Source of the DNA: Treponema sp.
GTDB lineage: Bacteria > Spirochaetota > Spirochaetia > Treponematales > Breznakiellaceae
Assembly: GCA_009777335.1 (NCBI GenBank)
Contig: WRMC01000006.1
Coordinates: 59,473 to 123,472 of the forward strand
Direction of reading: 5' to 3'
DNA: 64,000 nt
The position numbers were made by a program, and so were the translations under genes. Of this stretch, positions 4,013 through 63,057 are shown piece by piece. A model generated the notes under the pieces. It was not told the origin of the DNA. It searched no databases and saw nothing but the letters and a program-made list of their open reading frames with translations. Positions within the stretch are counted from its first letter, which is position 1, and each line of letters begins with the position of its first letter.

Positions 4013-4652
4013 CCTAGGTTTGATCTCGCCACTAATTGTATAAAACCACATGAGGGGTGGGTGCCGCTCAGGTCTAGGAATTGAGGTGAACCCGCCTACG
4101 GAGCCCCCGGCACCCAGTTTCTTGTATTCTATCATTGCGTTCAGCTTTCCTCGCACATACTGGATGCCGGAGCTTCTCTCATTATCCCATTCTGCTTTTC
4201 CCGAGGTCTCCTCCGGCGGAGAACCCCCAGATATTCCTAGCCCCAAGCAGCCCCCACCCCTCACGTGTTTGATCACCTAGGTGGCGAGATCAAGTCCAAC
4301 ACCAAGGGTGTCAGTCACTTTTCTGCTATAGCTTACTTGATATTTAAATTGGTACACAAATACCAATTCTTGTTATCAATTTTAGGGTATTTGTACTAAT
4401 TTCAAAAACCCCGGTGACTCACATCTTTGTCAGCAATTTTCATCATTCTTCCTCCCCGATAACACTTGTAGGGTTGATTCTTATAAGGCTCTTCTAAGTC
4501 AAACCACGCATAGTTATCTCAGCTGGAGCAGGAACTTCGTTCCGGGCGAGCCTTTTTTCAGCTCGCCAGGGATGAAGGTTCCTGTCCAGCGTGAGCTGAG
4601 TGTGCTGGGTTGGTCTTAGTCTTAGATATAGGAATGACAAGATCAAACCTAG
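4013..4652 (+). repeat. Composite palindromic element A (alpha module + beta hairpin module)
   Basis: Ends CCTAGGTTTGATCTCGCC (4013) and GACAAGATCAAACCTAG (4636-4652) are inverted repeats. Internal alpha module (4013-4297) is shared with 36708-37010 and the beta module with 37.1-37.4, 39.9-40.2 and 62.5-62.9 kb. Confidence 0.85.
4346..4402. repeat. Small palindromic repeat gamma, copy 1
   Basis: AAATTGGTACACAAATACCAATT...TTTTAGGGTATTTGTACTAATTT; related copies at 35355-35410 and 35417-35471. Confidence 0.85.
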
Positions 4653-34913: not shown

Positions 34914-34940
34914 AAAAGACCGGCTCGTTTAGGTCTTTTT
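34914..34940. terminator. Bidirectional terminator between HAD and HTH genes
   Basis: AAAAGACC-loop-GGTCTTTTT with A and T runs on both sides. Confidence 0.65.
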
Positions 34941-35283
34941 AATCATCCTCCCAAAATTCCTTATCCAGTGGTTTCATCTCTTTCAGGACCCCCGTAACCT
35001 CCTCGGTAAGTCTAAGGGCCCGCCGGGCAGCCCTCCTTTGAGCCAGTTCCTTTTCCCTAGCCTTCACTATGGTGGTCTCATTTCCCCCCAATAGGTAGTC
35101 CAGAGTGACCCCCAGGGTGACGGCGATATCATAGGCCATGGTCACTTCGGGTACCCGCTTATGCTTAATCCAGCTGTACAGGGTATTTACCCTTATATTC
35201 AGATAGTTAGCATAATCTTTGAGGCTCATGTTTTGAGCATGGATAAGGGGCCTCGCCCGGGCCCAAAATGTTTCTCCTCTCAT
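34939..35283 (-). CDS. XRE/HTH-type DNA-binding protein
   Basis: MSLKDYANYLNIRVNTLYSWIKHKRVPEVTMAYDIAVTLGVTLDYLLGG. Confidence 0.85.
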   Translation of the reverse strand: MRGETFWARARPLIHAQNMSLKDYANYLNIRVNTLYSWIKHKRVPEVTMAYDIAVTLGVTLDYLLGGNETTIVKAREKELAQRRAARRALRLTEEVTGVLKEMKPLDKEFWEDD

Positions 35284-35354
35284 ATATCTAATATATAAAA
35301 AATAACAAAAATTGTCAATACCTTTAGTATTCTTCGGTCAAAATGGGAAATTGC

Positions 35355-35471
35355 AAATTGGTACGTAAATACCAATTTGGTTTACACATTTTAGGGTATT
35401 TGTACCAATTCGCCATAAATTGGTACACAAATGCTAATTTTAGCAAAACATTTTAGGGTATTTGTACCAAT
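35355..35471. repeat. Tandem pair of gamma palindromic repeats
   Basis: 35355-35410 and 35417-35471: AATTGGTAC(g/a)(t/c)AAAT...TTTTAGGGTATTTGTACCAATT. Confidence 0.88.
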
Positions 35472-36008: not shown

Positions 36009-36713
36009 ATGAAAGCAAAAACAGATAAAAAAATCGAAGGGATGGTGGTGGGGCTCGTCCAGACCAATTGCTGGTTCTACCCCTTGGAAGAGACCCAGGA
36101 CACAGAGAAGGGCCCCTCAGGCGAACAGCCTTGTGTTGTTATTGATCCCGGTGATGAGGCCCCCTTACTCATTAAGCGTTTAGATGAGCTTGGCTGGATA
36201 CCCCGCTATATATTCCTGAGCCATGGACATTTTGACCACCTCTTTGCCCTGCCGGATCTGATCGAGCATTACAACAAATTCCTGGATACGCCGCCCCAGG
36301 TGGGCATACACCGGCTGGATGTTCAGTACCTGGGTAAGGATGCCTATGGGGCCCACCAGGAAAGCGTCAGGGCCGCCACCGGGAGCAGCGCCTATCTGGA
36401 CCCCCTCTGGAAACCCCTCCCCGAGGCGGACCTCATCTTTGAGGAGGGCAGCCAGGCCGGACCCTTTCAGATCCTCCATGTCCCCGGCCATACCCCCGGA
36501 AGCGTCTGTTTTTATGACAGAGAGGGCGGCCTCCTCTTTAGCGGCGATACCCTTTTCCGCATGGGCCGGGGCCGCACCGACCTCCCTGGAGGCAACGAAG
36601 AGCAGCTGCACCAAAGTCTCGCGAGGCTCCTTAGCATGGACAAGGGGACCAAGGTCTACCCCGGGCATGGTGCGGTTACGAGTATAGGTGATGAATTGCA
36701 ATATTATAGGTAG
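36009..36713 (+). CDS. MBL-fold metallohydrolase (glyoxalase II-like)
   Basis: LSHGHFDHLFAL, HVPGHTPGSVCFYD, FSGDTLFRMGRGRTDLPGG. Confidence 0.92.
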   Translation: MKAKTDKKIEGMVVGLVQTNCWFYPLEETQDTEKGPSGEQPCVVIDPGDEAPLLIKRLDELGWIPRYIFLSHGHFDHLFALPDLIEHYNKFLDTPPQVGIHRLDVQYLGKDAYGAHQESVRAATGSSAYLDPLWKPLPEADLIFEEGSQAGPFQILHVPGHTPGSVCFYDREGGLLFSGDTLFRMGRGRTDLPGGNEEQLHQSLARLLSMDKGTKVYPGHGAVTSIGDELQYYR

Positions 36714-37410
36714 GTTTGATCTCGCCACATACTATATATAACCCCAAGAGGGGTGGGTGCCGCTCAGGTCTAGGAATTGAGATGAACCCGCCTACGGAGC
36801 CCCCGGCACCCAGTTTCTTGTCTTCTATCATTGCGTTCAGCTTCCCTCGCACATACTGGATGCCGGAGATCCCTTCATTATCCTATTCTGCTCTACTCGA
36901 GGTCTCCTACGACGGGGAATTCTGCGCATGTATGCGCCGATATTACCTAGCCCCAAGCAGCCCCCACCCCTCCTAGTGTTTATCCCTTCATGTGGCGAGA
37001 TAAAACCAAATTGCCTGGTGATAAAGCAAATTTACTCAACACTTATGGGTAAGAGATGATTACTGCGTATGGTGATAGCCCAGGATGATGATCACTTCAC
37101 TGGAGCCTTATAGAGCCCAGCGCAAAGTGACTGACACCCTTGTTATGCATCATTCAAAATTTTTCTTCCCCCATTTAACTTGGAGGATTGATTATGTAAA
37201 GGCTCTTCTCAATCCAACCGCTCATTGCTTGCTCAGCTGGAGCAAAAAATGCTCCTGGCGGCGACATTGGCAGGAGAATGGTGTTAAATACTGGAACTTA
37301 GGTTAAGGGCTTTCCCTGCCACCGGAGCCGCTAGGGGCATGTTTTTGTCCAGCGGTGAGGGAGTATGGAGGTCTTGGATTAAGGAGGCTGTGGCGAGATC
37401 ACACCTACCT
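36708..37410 (+). repeat. Composite palindromic element B (alpha + beta modules)
   Basis: TIRs AGGTAGGTTTGATCTCGCCAC (36708-36728) and GTGGCGAGATCACACCTACCT (37390-37410) match at 20/21; alpha module matches element A, beta module matches element C. Confidence 0.9.
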
Positions 37411-37444
37411 CTAGATTATTTAATATAATTCAAGGAAAATTATA

Positions 37445-38011
37445 TTGGAGTTATATATTAAAACCTTCATTGTTTTTTTCATTATCTTCTTTATACCCAT
37501 AGTAGGTATCCCTGCACAGCATGCAGAATCTGGGGTTCTTTATTTTCATGTCATTGATGAAGAGGAGACCCTCGTTTTTAATAATTACTATAACCAAAAT
37601 CCCAGATCGACATTTAATGAAAGAGGTGAATTATTACATCCCAATTTGGTTTCTTCAGAAGTTATTATTCTCCCTGTATTTGAGATGGGTCAACAGAGGA
37701 CCAACGAACATGGGAACCCTGACTTTGTAGCTATTAGAACGGGAATTAGACTGGACAGAAATTTGATACAAGAAGTCAACATGGAAACTCACATATTTTC
37801 TGGAGAACCCCTCATATCATTTACCCTTACTCCCGAGGGTGGGGTGATGTTTTTTAACTATACCATGAGGAATATCGGAGAACTCATGGTTATCGTTTTG
37901 AATAACCAGGTTAGAGTTATTGCCCGTATTATAGCCCCTATACGAGAAGCTGGAATGATTCAAGGTTTTAATGTAGAAGAAGCAATGATGATATATGATC
38001 TTTTAAAATAA
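37445..38011 (+). CDS. Secreted stand-alone SecD-head (SecDF P1)-like protein
   Basis: Signal peptide; ISFTLTPEGGVMFFNYTMRNIGELMVIVLNNQVRVIARIIAPIREAGMIQGFNVEEA resembles the SecD TPEGA..F...T..NIGK.LAIVLDG.V..AP.I...I..G...I.GF...EA region. Confidence 0.65.
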   Translation: MELYIKTFIVFFIIFFIPIVGIPAQHAESGVLYFHVIDEEETLVFNNYYNQNPRSTFNERGELLHPNLVSSEVIILPVFEMGQQRTNEHGNPDFVAIRTGIRLDRNLIQEVNMETHIFSGEPLISFTLTPEGGVMFFNYTMRNIGELMVIVLNNQVRVIARIIAPIREAGMIQGFNVEEAMMIYDLLK

Positions 38012-38040
38012 AGCATAACCATGTTTTGCCCCAAAATTTG

Positions 38041-38094
38041 CCACAGGCGTTTCCCGCGGCATAGTTTCCTGCGCTATTGGGGTACGCCTGTGTG
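38041..38094. repeat. Inverted repeat between convergent genes
   Basis: CACAGGCGT...ACGCCTGTG 9-bp arms. Confidence 0.55.
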
Positions 38095-38140
38095 AGACCT
38101 TATTATACAGTACTATGTACCTTTTTATGCCCGTAAAACC

Positions 38141-39073
38141 TTAATTCCCCGGCGAATAGGCCATTCTGCCGTTTTGGCCTACAGCTACAAACCTGCCGCT
38201 GCCATAGGCGATATTCTGGATACTATTAGTACCAAATCCGCTAGCTCCGGGGGTACCTGGATTTGCGCCGGTTCCATCGCCGCCTGCTATGCCTGTCCAG
38301 CTTATGCCATCTGTAGAATACGCCATTCTGCCATTACCACCTACAGCAACAAACCTGCCGCCACCATAAGCGATGCCATTGATTTGATTTTGTCCAAATC
38401 CACTATCTCCGGGGTCAGTTGGTTCTGCGGTGGCTCCGGTGCCGCCTGCTATGCTTGTCCAGCTTGTGCCATCGGTCGAATACACCATTCTGCCTCCAGC
38501 GCCTACACCAACAAACTTGTTGCCGCCATAGGTGATTCCCAGGATTCGACCTAAACCAAAATCGCTAGTACCGTCTCCAGTACCTCCTGCTATGCCTGTC
38601 CAGCTTGTGCCATCTGCAGAATACGCAATTCTGCCACTTTCACCCACAGCAACAAACTTATTATCGCCATATGCGATTCCCCAGATTTCATTAGTACCAA
38701 ATTCACTATCACCGGGGTTAGCTGGTGCCGCGATGTTTTGAGAGCCGCCTGCTATGCCTGTCCAGCTTAGACCATCTGTAGAATACGCCATTCTGCCCTG
38801 ATAACCTACAGCAACATACCTGCCGCCGCCATAAGCGATTCCTTGGATTTGATTAGTACCAAATTCGCTGGCTCCGGGGGTGGGTGGATTTGGGCCGGTT
38901 CCAGTGCCGCCTGCTATGCCTGTCCAGGTAATGCCGAGGTTATTAGGCTCGCCATTATTATTGTCGTTGTTGTCACCTCCCGTAGGGCTAGAGCAGGCAG
39001 CCAAAGACAAGACTATTGCACTGATGAGGGTGATAAAGCCAAAAAACTTCAATTTTTTTAACACATTTTTCAT
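38141..39073 (-). CDS. Lipoprotein with five ~50-aa beta-propeller-like repeats
   Basis: Lipobox LSLAACSS; repeated FGxxxIxGIAYGxxxFVAVGxxGRMAYSTDGxSWTGIAGG. Confidence 0.85.
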   Translation of the reverse strand: MKNVLKKLKFFGFITLISAIVLSLAACSSPTGGDNNDNNNGEPNNLGITWTGIAGGTGTGPNPPTPGASEFGTNQIQGIAYGGGRYVAVGYQGRMAYSTDGLSWTGIAGGSQNIAAPANPGDSEFGTNEIWGIAYGDNKFVAVGESGRIAYSADGTSWTGIAGGTGDGTSDFGLGRILGITYGGNKFVGVGAGGRMVYSTDGTSWTSIAGGTGATAEPTDPGDSGFGQNQINGIAYGGGRFVAVGGNGRMAYSTDGISWTGIAGGDGTGANPGTPGASGFGTNSIQNIAYGSGRFVAVGQNGRMAYSPGN

Positions 39074-39156
39074 AATAACTCCTTTTTACGCAGAAAATAG
39101 ACATTTTTTAAGGAAAATACCTGGCAGTATTTCATTATACAGGTAATAATCTGTGG

Positions 39157-39618
39157 GTGAGTGTACTTCACCAGTGGATAATTGTCAAGGGTATTGTAGT
39201 GAATAAAATTGAATTTATTAACTGGTGGTATATCGTAGTGAAGTCAAGTTTACGGCAAATTTTAGCTCTGAATATTAAGAAACGCAGATATATACTAGGC
39301 CTTTCACAGGCAAAACTGGCCGAAGCCGCTAACATTGCTACAGCTTATGTCGCCATGATTGAACTGGAAAAGAAATTCCCCTCTGTGGATGTCCTGGAAC
39401 GGATTGCCCATGCCTTACAAATAGACCCGCCAGAACTTTTTTCCAAAGCCTGTTATCCATCGGAAGCAGTTAAGGACCTTCACCGGTCTGTGTTAACCGG
39501 CATAGAACAGATTGTAAAAAACCATATCGAAGAATTTGAGGCAAAAGTAAACTCCGGCGATTTTGAAGCCCCACAGAATGAAAAAGATGCACAGACAAAC
39601 CAGAAATCTGGTAAATAA
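39157..39618 (+). CDS. XRE family transcriptional regulator
   Basis: NIKKRRYILGLSQAKLAEAANIATAYVAMIELEKKFPSVDVLERIAHAL. The start may be downstream (GTG near 39241). Confidence 0.85.
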   Translation: MSVLHQWIIVKGIVVNKIEFINWWYIVVKSSLRQILALNIKKRRYILGLSQAKLAEAANIATAYVAMIELEKKFPSVDVLERIAHALQIDPPELFSKACYPSEAVKDLHRSVLTGIEQIVKNHIEEFEAKVNSGDFEAPQNEKDAQTNQKSGK

Positions 39619-39640
39619 ATCGATACTGCTTCCGGAAGCT

Positions 39641-40174
39641 GACCTCATTATCCCTTCACTGCTGGTTAAATACATGCCTAATTTACTGAACACCCACCAA
39701 GTCCCCTCTCGCTGGTCAGCAAACAATCGCCAGAAGGGAACCTCACTCGTATACACTCGTTCGGTGGGGGTTCCTGTCGGCTCCAGCTGCAGCGAACTCC
39801 TTCATCTAAATAATAAATATATAGCTTATTTGTGCTGCAGAAATCGCCGCCAGGAATTTTTGCAGCACCAGCGTTGAAAGATACGCGTGGTTCGATAGAA
39901 GATGATCATCGAAAATCACCTGCATGGTATAGTTTGACACCTTTGTCGTGCATCATTCAAAATTTATCTTCCCCCATCATACTTGTAGGATGGATTATGA
40001 TAGGCTCTTCTCGATCTGCCCGAGCATTGCTTGCTCAGCTGGAGCAAAAAATGCTCCTGGCGACGACATTGGCAGGAAAAAAATGCTATGTATAGTTGGT
40101 TAGGTATAAGGCTTTCCTGCCACAGGAGTCGCTAGGGGCATGTTTTTGTCCAGCGGTGAAGGGATAATGAGGTC
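39641..40174 (+). repeat. Composite palindromic element C (delta + beta modules)
   Basis: TIRs GACCTCATTATCCCTTCACTGCTGG (39641-39665) and CCAGCGGTGAAGGGATAATGAGGTC (40150-40174) match at 24/25; delta module shared with element D, beta module with B. Confidence 0.9.
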
Positions 40175-40230
40175 TTCGAATTTAATGTATCAATCATTAT
40201 AATCCTGCTATACTACTCACAGGAGACATC

Positions 40231-62134: not shown

Positions 62135-62213
62135 TATTGATAATGATGATATTGGTTAACTGAGTGTATCCAGTGCAGGATGGTAAGATAATTGCACCAA
62201 CAGGGCTATTATT

Positions 62214-62901
62214 AAGACCTACCGCTCAGTTCACCGCTGGACAAAAACATGCACAATCGATCAAACACCCACCAAGTCCCCTCTCGCTGGTCAGCAAACA
62301 ATCCCCAGCGGCTCAAGCGGCTTGACCACGCAATTTATGAAACTATCGAAGCTTAGGGATTAGTATGGTTTTACTTAAAACAAAGTTGCGTGGTCAACCG
62401 AAATCGCCGCCGGGAATTTTTGCAGCACCAGCGTTGAAAGATACGGGTGGTTCGATAGAAGATGATCATCGAGAACCACCTAAATAATTTAGCCTATGTC
62501 GTACCATCATTGTCCATATAAAAGTGAGTGGGGGAAAGCAGCTGTAGAATGATTACGTGACAGGTGTAATATCGCACCGCTCGGTAAATGATCACCGTTG
62601 GCAGGGCCCTATTTCACCCAGCCCAGGATCTCCTCCCGTCTTCTTCCCCCCCCACCCATGATATGGATGATTACTAAGGTACAGAGGCTCATCTATGCAA
62701 AGGGTTTCTTATGAAAATGCTCTTCTTGAGCTAGCCACGCATTGCTGTCCCAGCTGGAGCAGGAACTTCGTCCATGACGAGCCTCTGGCGGGCAGGAAAA
62801 GCGAGCTTAGGAGTTAAATATTTTAGGGTCAGACCGCCAGCGGAGCTCGGCAGGGATGAAGGTTCCTGTCCAGCCTGAGCTGGAATTGCTGGGTAGGTCT
62901 T
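62214..62901 (+). repeat. Composite palindromic element D (delta + beta modules)
   Basis: TIRs AAGACCTACC (62214-62223) and GGTAGGTCTT (62892-62901); delta blocks at 62264-62303 and 62401-62479 match element C; beta arms match element A. Confidence 0.85.
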
Positions 62902-63057
62902 AGATTAGATTAGTCTTCGTAGTAAAGCCATCAGAGTTTGTTTGCTAACCAGCTATATAGATAGATATGTTCTACATTATCTTGAATCGTACATGATCAC
63001 TTCACATTTTAGTCTTCACATAGAGACAAACATACGTTTTCATACTATACTTAACCC

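Follow-up and report, generated by a model that had tools for sequence, protein, structure and literature searches.

The window analyzed here is a 64,000-nucleotide stretch of contig WRMC01000006.1 of a Treponema sp. genome, a 2.16-Mb MAG of 28 contigs and 77% completeness. The closest proteins to the isocitrate dehydrogenase encoded by the icd gene of the window belong to Treponema sp. and Spirochaetaceae bacterium MAGs and to Breznakiella (about 69-79% identity), and these relatives suggest a termite-gut origin for this Treponema-like spirochaete MAG. The window also carries a CI/XRE-like HTH gene (34939-35283, minus strand), beside which an operator-like repeat, AAATTGGTAC..AAATACCAATTT..GGGTATTTGTACCAAT, is present twice (35354-35471). 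A lipoprotein-like gene (38141-39073) contains internal repeats of about 150-300 bp; a relative is encoded on contig C13, where another hairpin locus is nearby. The end of both window and contig (63938-64000) consists of a long C-rich run of low complexity. Four repeat elements, A to D, are distributed along the window and are built from two kinds of hairpin, alpha and beta, the latter with outer stems of types t1, t2 or t3. Their components are as follows.

4015-4651, plus strand: element A, alpha hairpin, linker and short beta hairpin (t2), with ends TA-GGTTTGATC...GATCAAACC-TA
4015-4300, minus strand: alpha quasi-palindrome of A, whose stabler fold is that of the element's minus strand
4522-4590, plus strand: beta hairpin of A, type t2, with arms GCAGGAACTTCGT / GATGAAGGTTCCTGTCC
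36707-37413, plus strand: element B, alpha, linker and beta (t1), with inverted ends bounded by TA
36711-37004, minus strand: alpha quasi-palindrome of B
37236-37353, plus strand: beta hairpin of B, type t1, with GCGGC (37258-37262) paired with GCCGC (37327-37331)
39641-40175, no strand assigned: element C, an inverted pair of beta hairpins, with a 38-bp terminal inverted repeat (39641-39678 / 40137-40174)
39755-39872, minus strand: left beta hairpin of C, type t3
40038-40154, plus strand: right beta hairpin of C, type t1, with GCGAC (40060-40064) paired with GTCGC (40128-40132)
62213-62902, no strand assigned: element D, an inverted pair of beta hairpins (t3 left, t2 right), with ends AAGACCTACC...GGTAGGTCTT
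62286-62432, minus strand: left beta hairpin of D, type t3
62753-62874, plus strand: right beta hairpin of D, type t2

The original prediction had counted four copies of the beta hairpin, one in each element. The corresponding strings are present, but the window holds six such hairpins, as the left halves of C and D are inverted beta units; a separate module ('gamma') for these halves was rejected on the basis of the profiles. The predicted folds are stable, with -63.6 kcal/mol (z -8.1) for the hairpin of B and -62.3 kcal/mol (z -9.0) for the right hairpin of C. The 29-base 3' arm shared by B and C occurs twice (0 occurrences expected by chance), and the GATGAAGGTTCCTGTCC arm exactly twice, at 4571-4587 in A and 62855-62871 in D (0.03 expected).

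A search of the genome with elements A to D, in which the matches were merged, retrieved at least 66 loci, totaling 36.5 kb or about 1.7% of the MAG and mostly measuring 500-750 bp each. The true copy number is probably higher because several contigs start or stop inside or near elements; this is the case for ends of C3, C5, C12, C22, C23 and C25. The loci are non-coding and lie between ORFs. Profiles derived from all copies resolve them into two building blocks: alpha, a quasi-palindrome of about 282 bp with ends TAGGTTTGATCTCGCCAC...GTGGCGAGATCAAACCT, and beta, a unit of about 250 nt whose core is the hairpin singled out originally. The beta hairpin spans about 68-150 nt, and some 77 copies of it are found across the 66 loci. 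The most common layouts are alpha-beta> (24 loci) and beta<-beta> (19 loci), the alpha-alpha layout being represented by one locus, L072. Since the more stable strand of alpha is opposite in direction to that of beta, both common layouts amount to an outward-facing pair of hairpins on opposite strands. The hairpins of each element are drawn from four kinds (alpha, beta-t1, beta-t2 and beta-t3), and like pairs are almost absent: none of the 18 typed beta<-beta> elements contains a same-type pair, whereas reshuffling predicts 5.7 (P = 0.001). Whole elements are never near-identical to one another, and there is therefore no sign of recent movement. The operator-like repeat mentioned above is also found in or near some elements, namely in the linker of A (4345-4400) and at loci L036 and L060.

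Ends resembling TA-GG.TTGAT, with up to 2 mismatches, are present on both sides of 29 of the 66 loci and on one side of another 30, against a background of 20 out of 132 flanks. In several elements the termini are inverted with TA at both ends, and TAGGNTTGATCTCGCCAC ends are located at element loci with the exception of one site near a contig end (C24:113-130). The foot of the beta stem is typically CTCAGCTGG. A small hairpin is also observed upstream of beta (L032-L097), as GGATTGA..TCAATCC in many t1 copies and GGTGGTTCTCGAT..ATCGAACCACC in t3; its foot reads GTAGG in 22 of 66 copies, which recalls the GTAG-tagged REPs. Genomes of the same genus share about 70% DNA identity with a rearranged neighborhood, and their comparison yielded no empty site.

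The three types of beta outer stem, t1 (B and right hairpin of C), t2 (A and right hairpin of D) and t3 (left hairpins of C and D), follow a common plan with small departures: three paired segments of 6, 6-7 and 3-4 bp are separated by bulged Gs, the first on the 5' arm and the second on the 3' arm, and lead to a wobble followed by C-G pairs. The U.G wobble is invariant in all 44 t1 and t3 copies. A symmetric fold-back alignment, which does not favor wobbles, gave 170 G.T against 33 A.C mismatches in the beta stems, about one G.T per copy being the conserved wobble; in the alpha stems the counts are 319 and 138. The sense strand is the better fold in 71/71 beta and 34/37 alpha copies, and a covariance model built from sense strands scores C at 119 bits versus 48 bits. 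Because G.T exceeds A.C and one strand folds better in all 71 beta hairpins, the evidence points to a single strand, be it RNA or single-stranded DNA (ssDNA), as the constrained form. Within each type, the terminal 20 nt at either end of the hairpin show 94-100% identity. Outside the stem, identity amounts to 63-84% in the adjoining 60 nt, to 56-58% between 110 and 60 nt upstream, to 64-72% directly past the stem and to 40-47% farther downstream. The neutral decay of a dead repeat is disfavored because the stem arms are conserved far above the outside sequence.

Covariation was quantified on an alignment of the 44 t1 and t3 hairpins with a 29-pair structure, that is 1276 stem cells. Pairing is observed in 97.8% of these cells versus 86.9% upon shuffling, a level reached by 0 of 500 shuffles, and changes on both sides are found in 13 of the 29 stem pairs. 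The covariation score is 0.317 as compared to a shuffled mean of 0.115 (0/500) and to at most 0.082 in slid controls. When t1 is analyzed alone, which takes out the t1/t3 split, helix pairs still rank 1, 2, 4 and 5 of 1770 column pairs (APC-corrected G). Parsimony on a FastTree tree gave 27 double and 9 single changes that keep the pair, against 6 single and 2 double changes that break it, whereas slid partners gave 0-5 pairing doubles and 35-51 single breaks; these counts are indicative, as the tree is built from recombining sequences. The change first noticed in the window, from GCGGC/GCCGC in B to GCGAC/GTCGC in C, is confirmed at its positions and corresponds to one pair change, at columns 26/126, which are G-C in 39 copies, A-U in 4 (C among them) and G-U in the single copy L036, the expected intermediate. 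The companion claim that A and D on one side and B and C on the other had swapped both arms is not supported in that form, as it compares distinct types, t2 and t1, and not edited arms. As pairing is maintained in the stems while the letters vary, the folded shape looks to be what is kept. As to the proposal of a selected structure, it is upheld by covariation far above the shuffled and slid controls, including inside t1, and is further backed by the G-U intermediate, the mismatch asymmetry and the contrast between the arms (94-100%) and the outside sequence (40-84%); part of the signal is nevertheless explained by exchange between copies.

The same observations bear on the possibility of a dispersed structured RNA, in which the elements would be transcribed, outward from the middle or by read-through, and the hairpins would act as RNA, the DNA being only its gene; such hairpins could be targets of RNase III or other proteins, regulators of adjacent mRNAs or small RNAs. 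It is favored by the tolerance of G.U and avoidance of A.C on one strand of both hairpins, as well as by covariation strongly above background. A sigma-70-like match lies at a conserved TGACACC just upstream of beta in B (37131) and C (39934), but promoter-like sites are not in excess overall (10 versus 7.2 in shuffles, sd 2.7). At 19 of 28 alpha-beta loci (two assigned by eye), the gene past beta runs in the same direction, yet neither orientation nor position relative to genes displays a significant preference. Moreover, no Rfam family was matched, and the beta<-beta> layout places a sense hairpin on each strand, which is odd for a single transcript. This explanation is considered doubtful. 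An RNA role without mobility would produce the same stem signature, which counts against a mobile repeat.

Comparison of the copies reveals how the variation is organized. Outer type, middle pairs and inner module are found in many combinations, the inner modules a, b1 and b2 each being shared by t1 and t3 hairpins. A change in one arm is nearly always accompanied by one in the other, so that outer, middle and inner layers recombine almost freely with their arms matched. Because the layers move with both arms together, part of the covariation reflects the exchange of contiguous inner segments. Gene conversion had been named at the outset as a possible refutation of a selected structure; it accounts for part of the signal, as exchange is likelier than independent mutation at 17/135 and 21/131, where identical double changes recur, but 26/126, 27/125 and 23/129 have point changes that still stand as good compensatory cases. 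Exchange alone is insufficient because differing breakpoints would leave mismatched arms, which are not seen apart from one noticed hybrid, L091 (t3 5' arm with t1 3' arm). Correction templated by the hairpin itself is insufficient as well because the conserved bulges and wobble would vanish, which is not seen either.

These results also weigh on a decaying MITE devoid of any selected fold, the modules of which were born as inverted repeats and the arms of which are kept matched by inter-copy or intra-hairpin gene conversion. The clear exchange of layers, the recurrence of identical double states on the tree and the inverted TA-ended termini typical of bacterial MITEs would all fit such an origin. 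However, uniform decay would be expected, unlike the arm conservation reported above; correction within hairpins would remove the bulges, the internal loop and the wobble, which are present in all types; no G.T/A.C asymmetry is predicted; and one-arm recombinants look very rare. This account, already disfavored, is therefore rated as quite improbable. Selection on the fold, with exchange supplying the variation, is the simplest account.

The properties of the family were compared to those of known systems. Like REP/BIME sequences, the elements are high-copy extragenic imperfect palindromes arranged as inverted, mostly heterotypic mosaic pairs, with a conserved bulge, one folded strand and pairing kept in variants (PMC2817692, PMC8266576). 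REP variants keep the palindrome, which was read as selection for complementary mutations, so that palindrome preservation through such mutations has already been proposed (PMC2817692). The y, z1 and z2 REPs of E. coli combine into heterotypic mosaics; their bulge is conserved and recognition is limited to one strand, this single-stranded form with its bulge being what the transposase reads (PMC8266576). The Treponema units differ by their size (about 70-290 nt versus 20-40 nt), by the lack of a consistent GTAG/CGTC tag at the stem foot, by their exchangeable concentric stem layers and TA-ended outer inverted repeats, and by the fact that no RAYT was found in the 77%-complete MAG. With MITEs bearing TA termini (Correia/NEMIS, ERIC, RUP) and with CIR, they share a non-coding, intergenic nature, TA-ended inverted termini and long stem-loops. 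In CIR repeats a linker connects two arms, and TA ends are frequent among bacterial MITEs (PMC2229807). Unlike these, the Treponema elements measure 500-750 bp instead of about 100-200, display four interchangeable hairpin kinds with strong compensatory change, and no cognate IS630/IS5-type transposase was found in the MAG. By unit size and tag, the family is thus not a REP/BIME, and its match to MITEs is incomplete. No description of its size, its four interchangeable hairpin kinds, its heterotypic rule or its concentric layer exchange was found in the literature searched.

Taken as a whole, the data are best explained, with a probability of roughly 55%, by a lineage-specific, non-coding intergenic repeat working like an oversized REP/BIME or MITE. 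The element would have spread as a non-autonomous mobile sequence, and a trans-acting protein would read its folded single strand by shape, either as ssDNA during replication or transposition or as RNA; both propositions are made because of the analogy with REPs and TA-ended bacterial MITEs. The shape recognized would be 6 bp, a 5' G bulge, 6-7 bp, a 3' G bulge, 3-4 bp, the wobble and C-G C-G. Selection for recognition would hold both arms matched, while stem layers would be exchanged among copies by recombination and asymmetric products lost. Long perfect palindromes are unstable, and this probably underlies the heterotypic pairing. No transposase of the IS630 DDE_3, Y1_Tnp (PF01797) or DDE_Tnp_1 families was detected in the MAG, the contigs of which are broken by the repeats; since the assembly is 77% complete, this absence weighs little. 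The lack of near-identical whole elements also counts against this reading. A more radical proposal, regarded as unlikely, is a new class of repeat whose long hairpins evolve by concentric layer exchange: matched arm pairs of outer, middle and inner segments would be swapped between copies, the folded hairpin itself (cruciform or ssDNA) would recombine, a dedicated factor would recognize the structure, and like-with-like pairing would be barred by a rule.

The folded strand could also be the substrate of a recombinase, making the hairpins attC-like or IS200/IS605-like ssDNA recombination sites, with layer exchange as a by-product. In IS200/IS605, both end hairpins are on the same strand. A folded single strand with extrahelical bases is recognized in IS200/IS605 subterminal hairpins and integron attC sites (general background and PMC8266576), and the strand-specific fold, the conserved extrahelical G on each arm and the concentric exchange of layers are in line with such structure-recognized sites. 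The Treponema hairpins are however much longer and located on opposite strands, and no Y1 transposase was found in the MAG, which makes recombination sites of this kind highly improbable. Returning to the oversized REP/BIME-like or MITE-like repeat, the roughly 77 hairpins carried by a single genome, in three types, constitute a natural experiment in which selection on shape, selection on sequence and recombination can be separated. If the elements are mobile, REP/BIME-like biology would extend to units several times larger, for which no report was found in the phylum, and the way in which matched arms are exchanged would become directly testable.

Relatives of the repeat were searched for at several levels. 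The absence of Rfam matches applies to gathering as well as relaxed thresholds, sub-threshold miRNA-like matches being dismissed as generic hairpins. A DNA search of 58 relatives gave no copy save one 39-base match (E 9e-4) in genome G019, and the covariance model with strict filters gave none outside the source MAG among 200 genomes of the family (199 others). GTDB and IMG/VR, queried by exact arm pattern, and collections of plasmids and phages, queried by blastn, yielded no copy; 79 viral matches to the 16-base terminus were single and judged to be due to chance. About 380 kb of one same-genus genome and 15 kb of another contained no comparably dense repeat and no match to the model. In other treponemes, the region upstream of icd was checked by fold-back with an exact-arm criterion, which was uninformative since even the known hairpin was missed. 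Two further roles were considered and rejected, namely terminators, as convergent gene pairs are not preferred, and a divergent promoter in the middle of the element, candidate sites being at chance level. The reverse transcriptases of the MAG (a DGR and an animal-LINE-like fragment) are unlinked to the repeat elements. The DGR (L215, G000:C9:110069-112481) consists of an FGE-sulfatase-like variable protein, a bAvd-like protein and a reverse transcriptase, encoded consecutively. Contig C18 begins (L216:1-742, G000:C18) with putative animal-LINE-like reverse transcriptase pieces, followed by a lipoprotein-like ORF, and this region is possibly a host-DNA chimera or contamination of the MAG.
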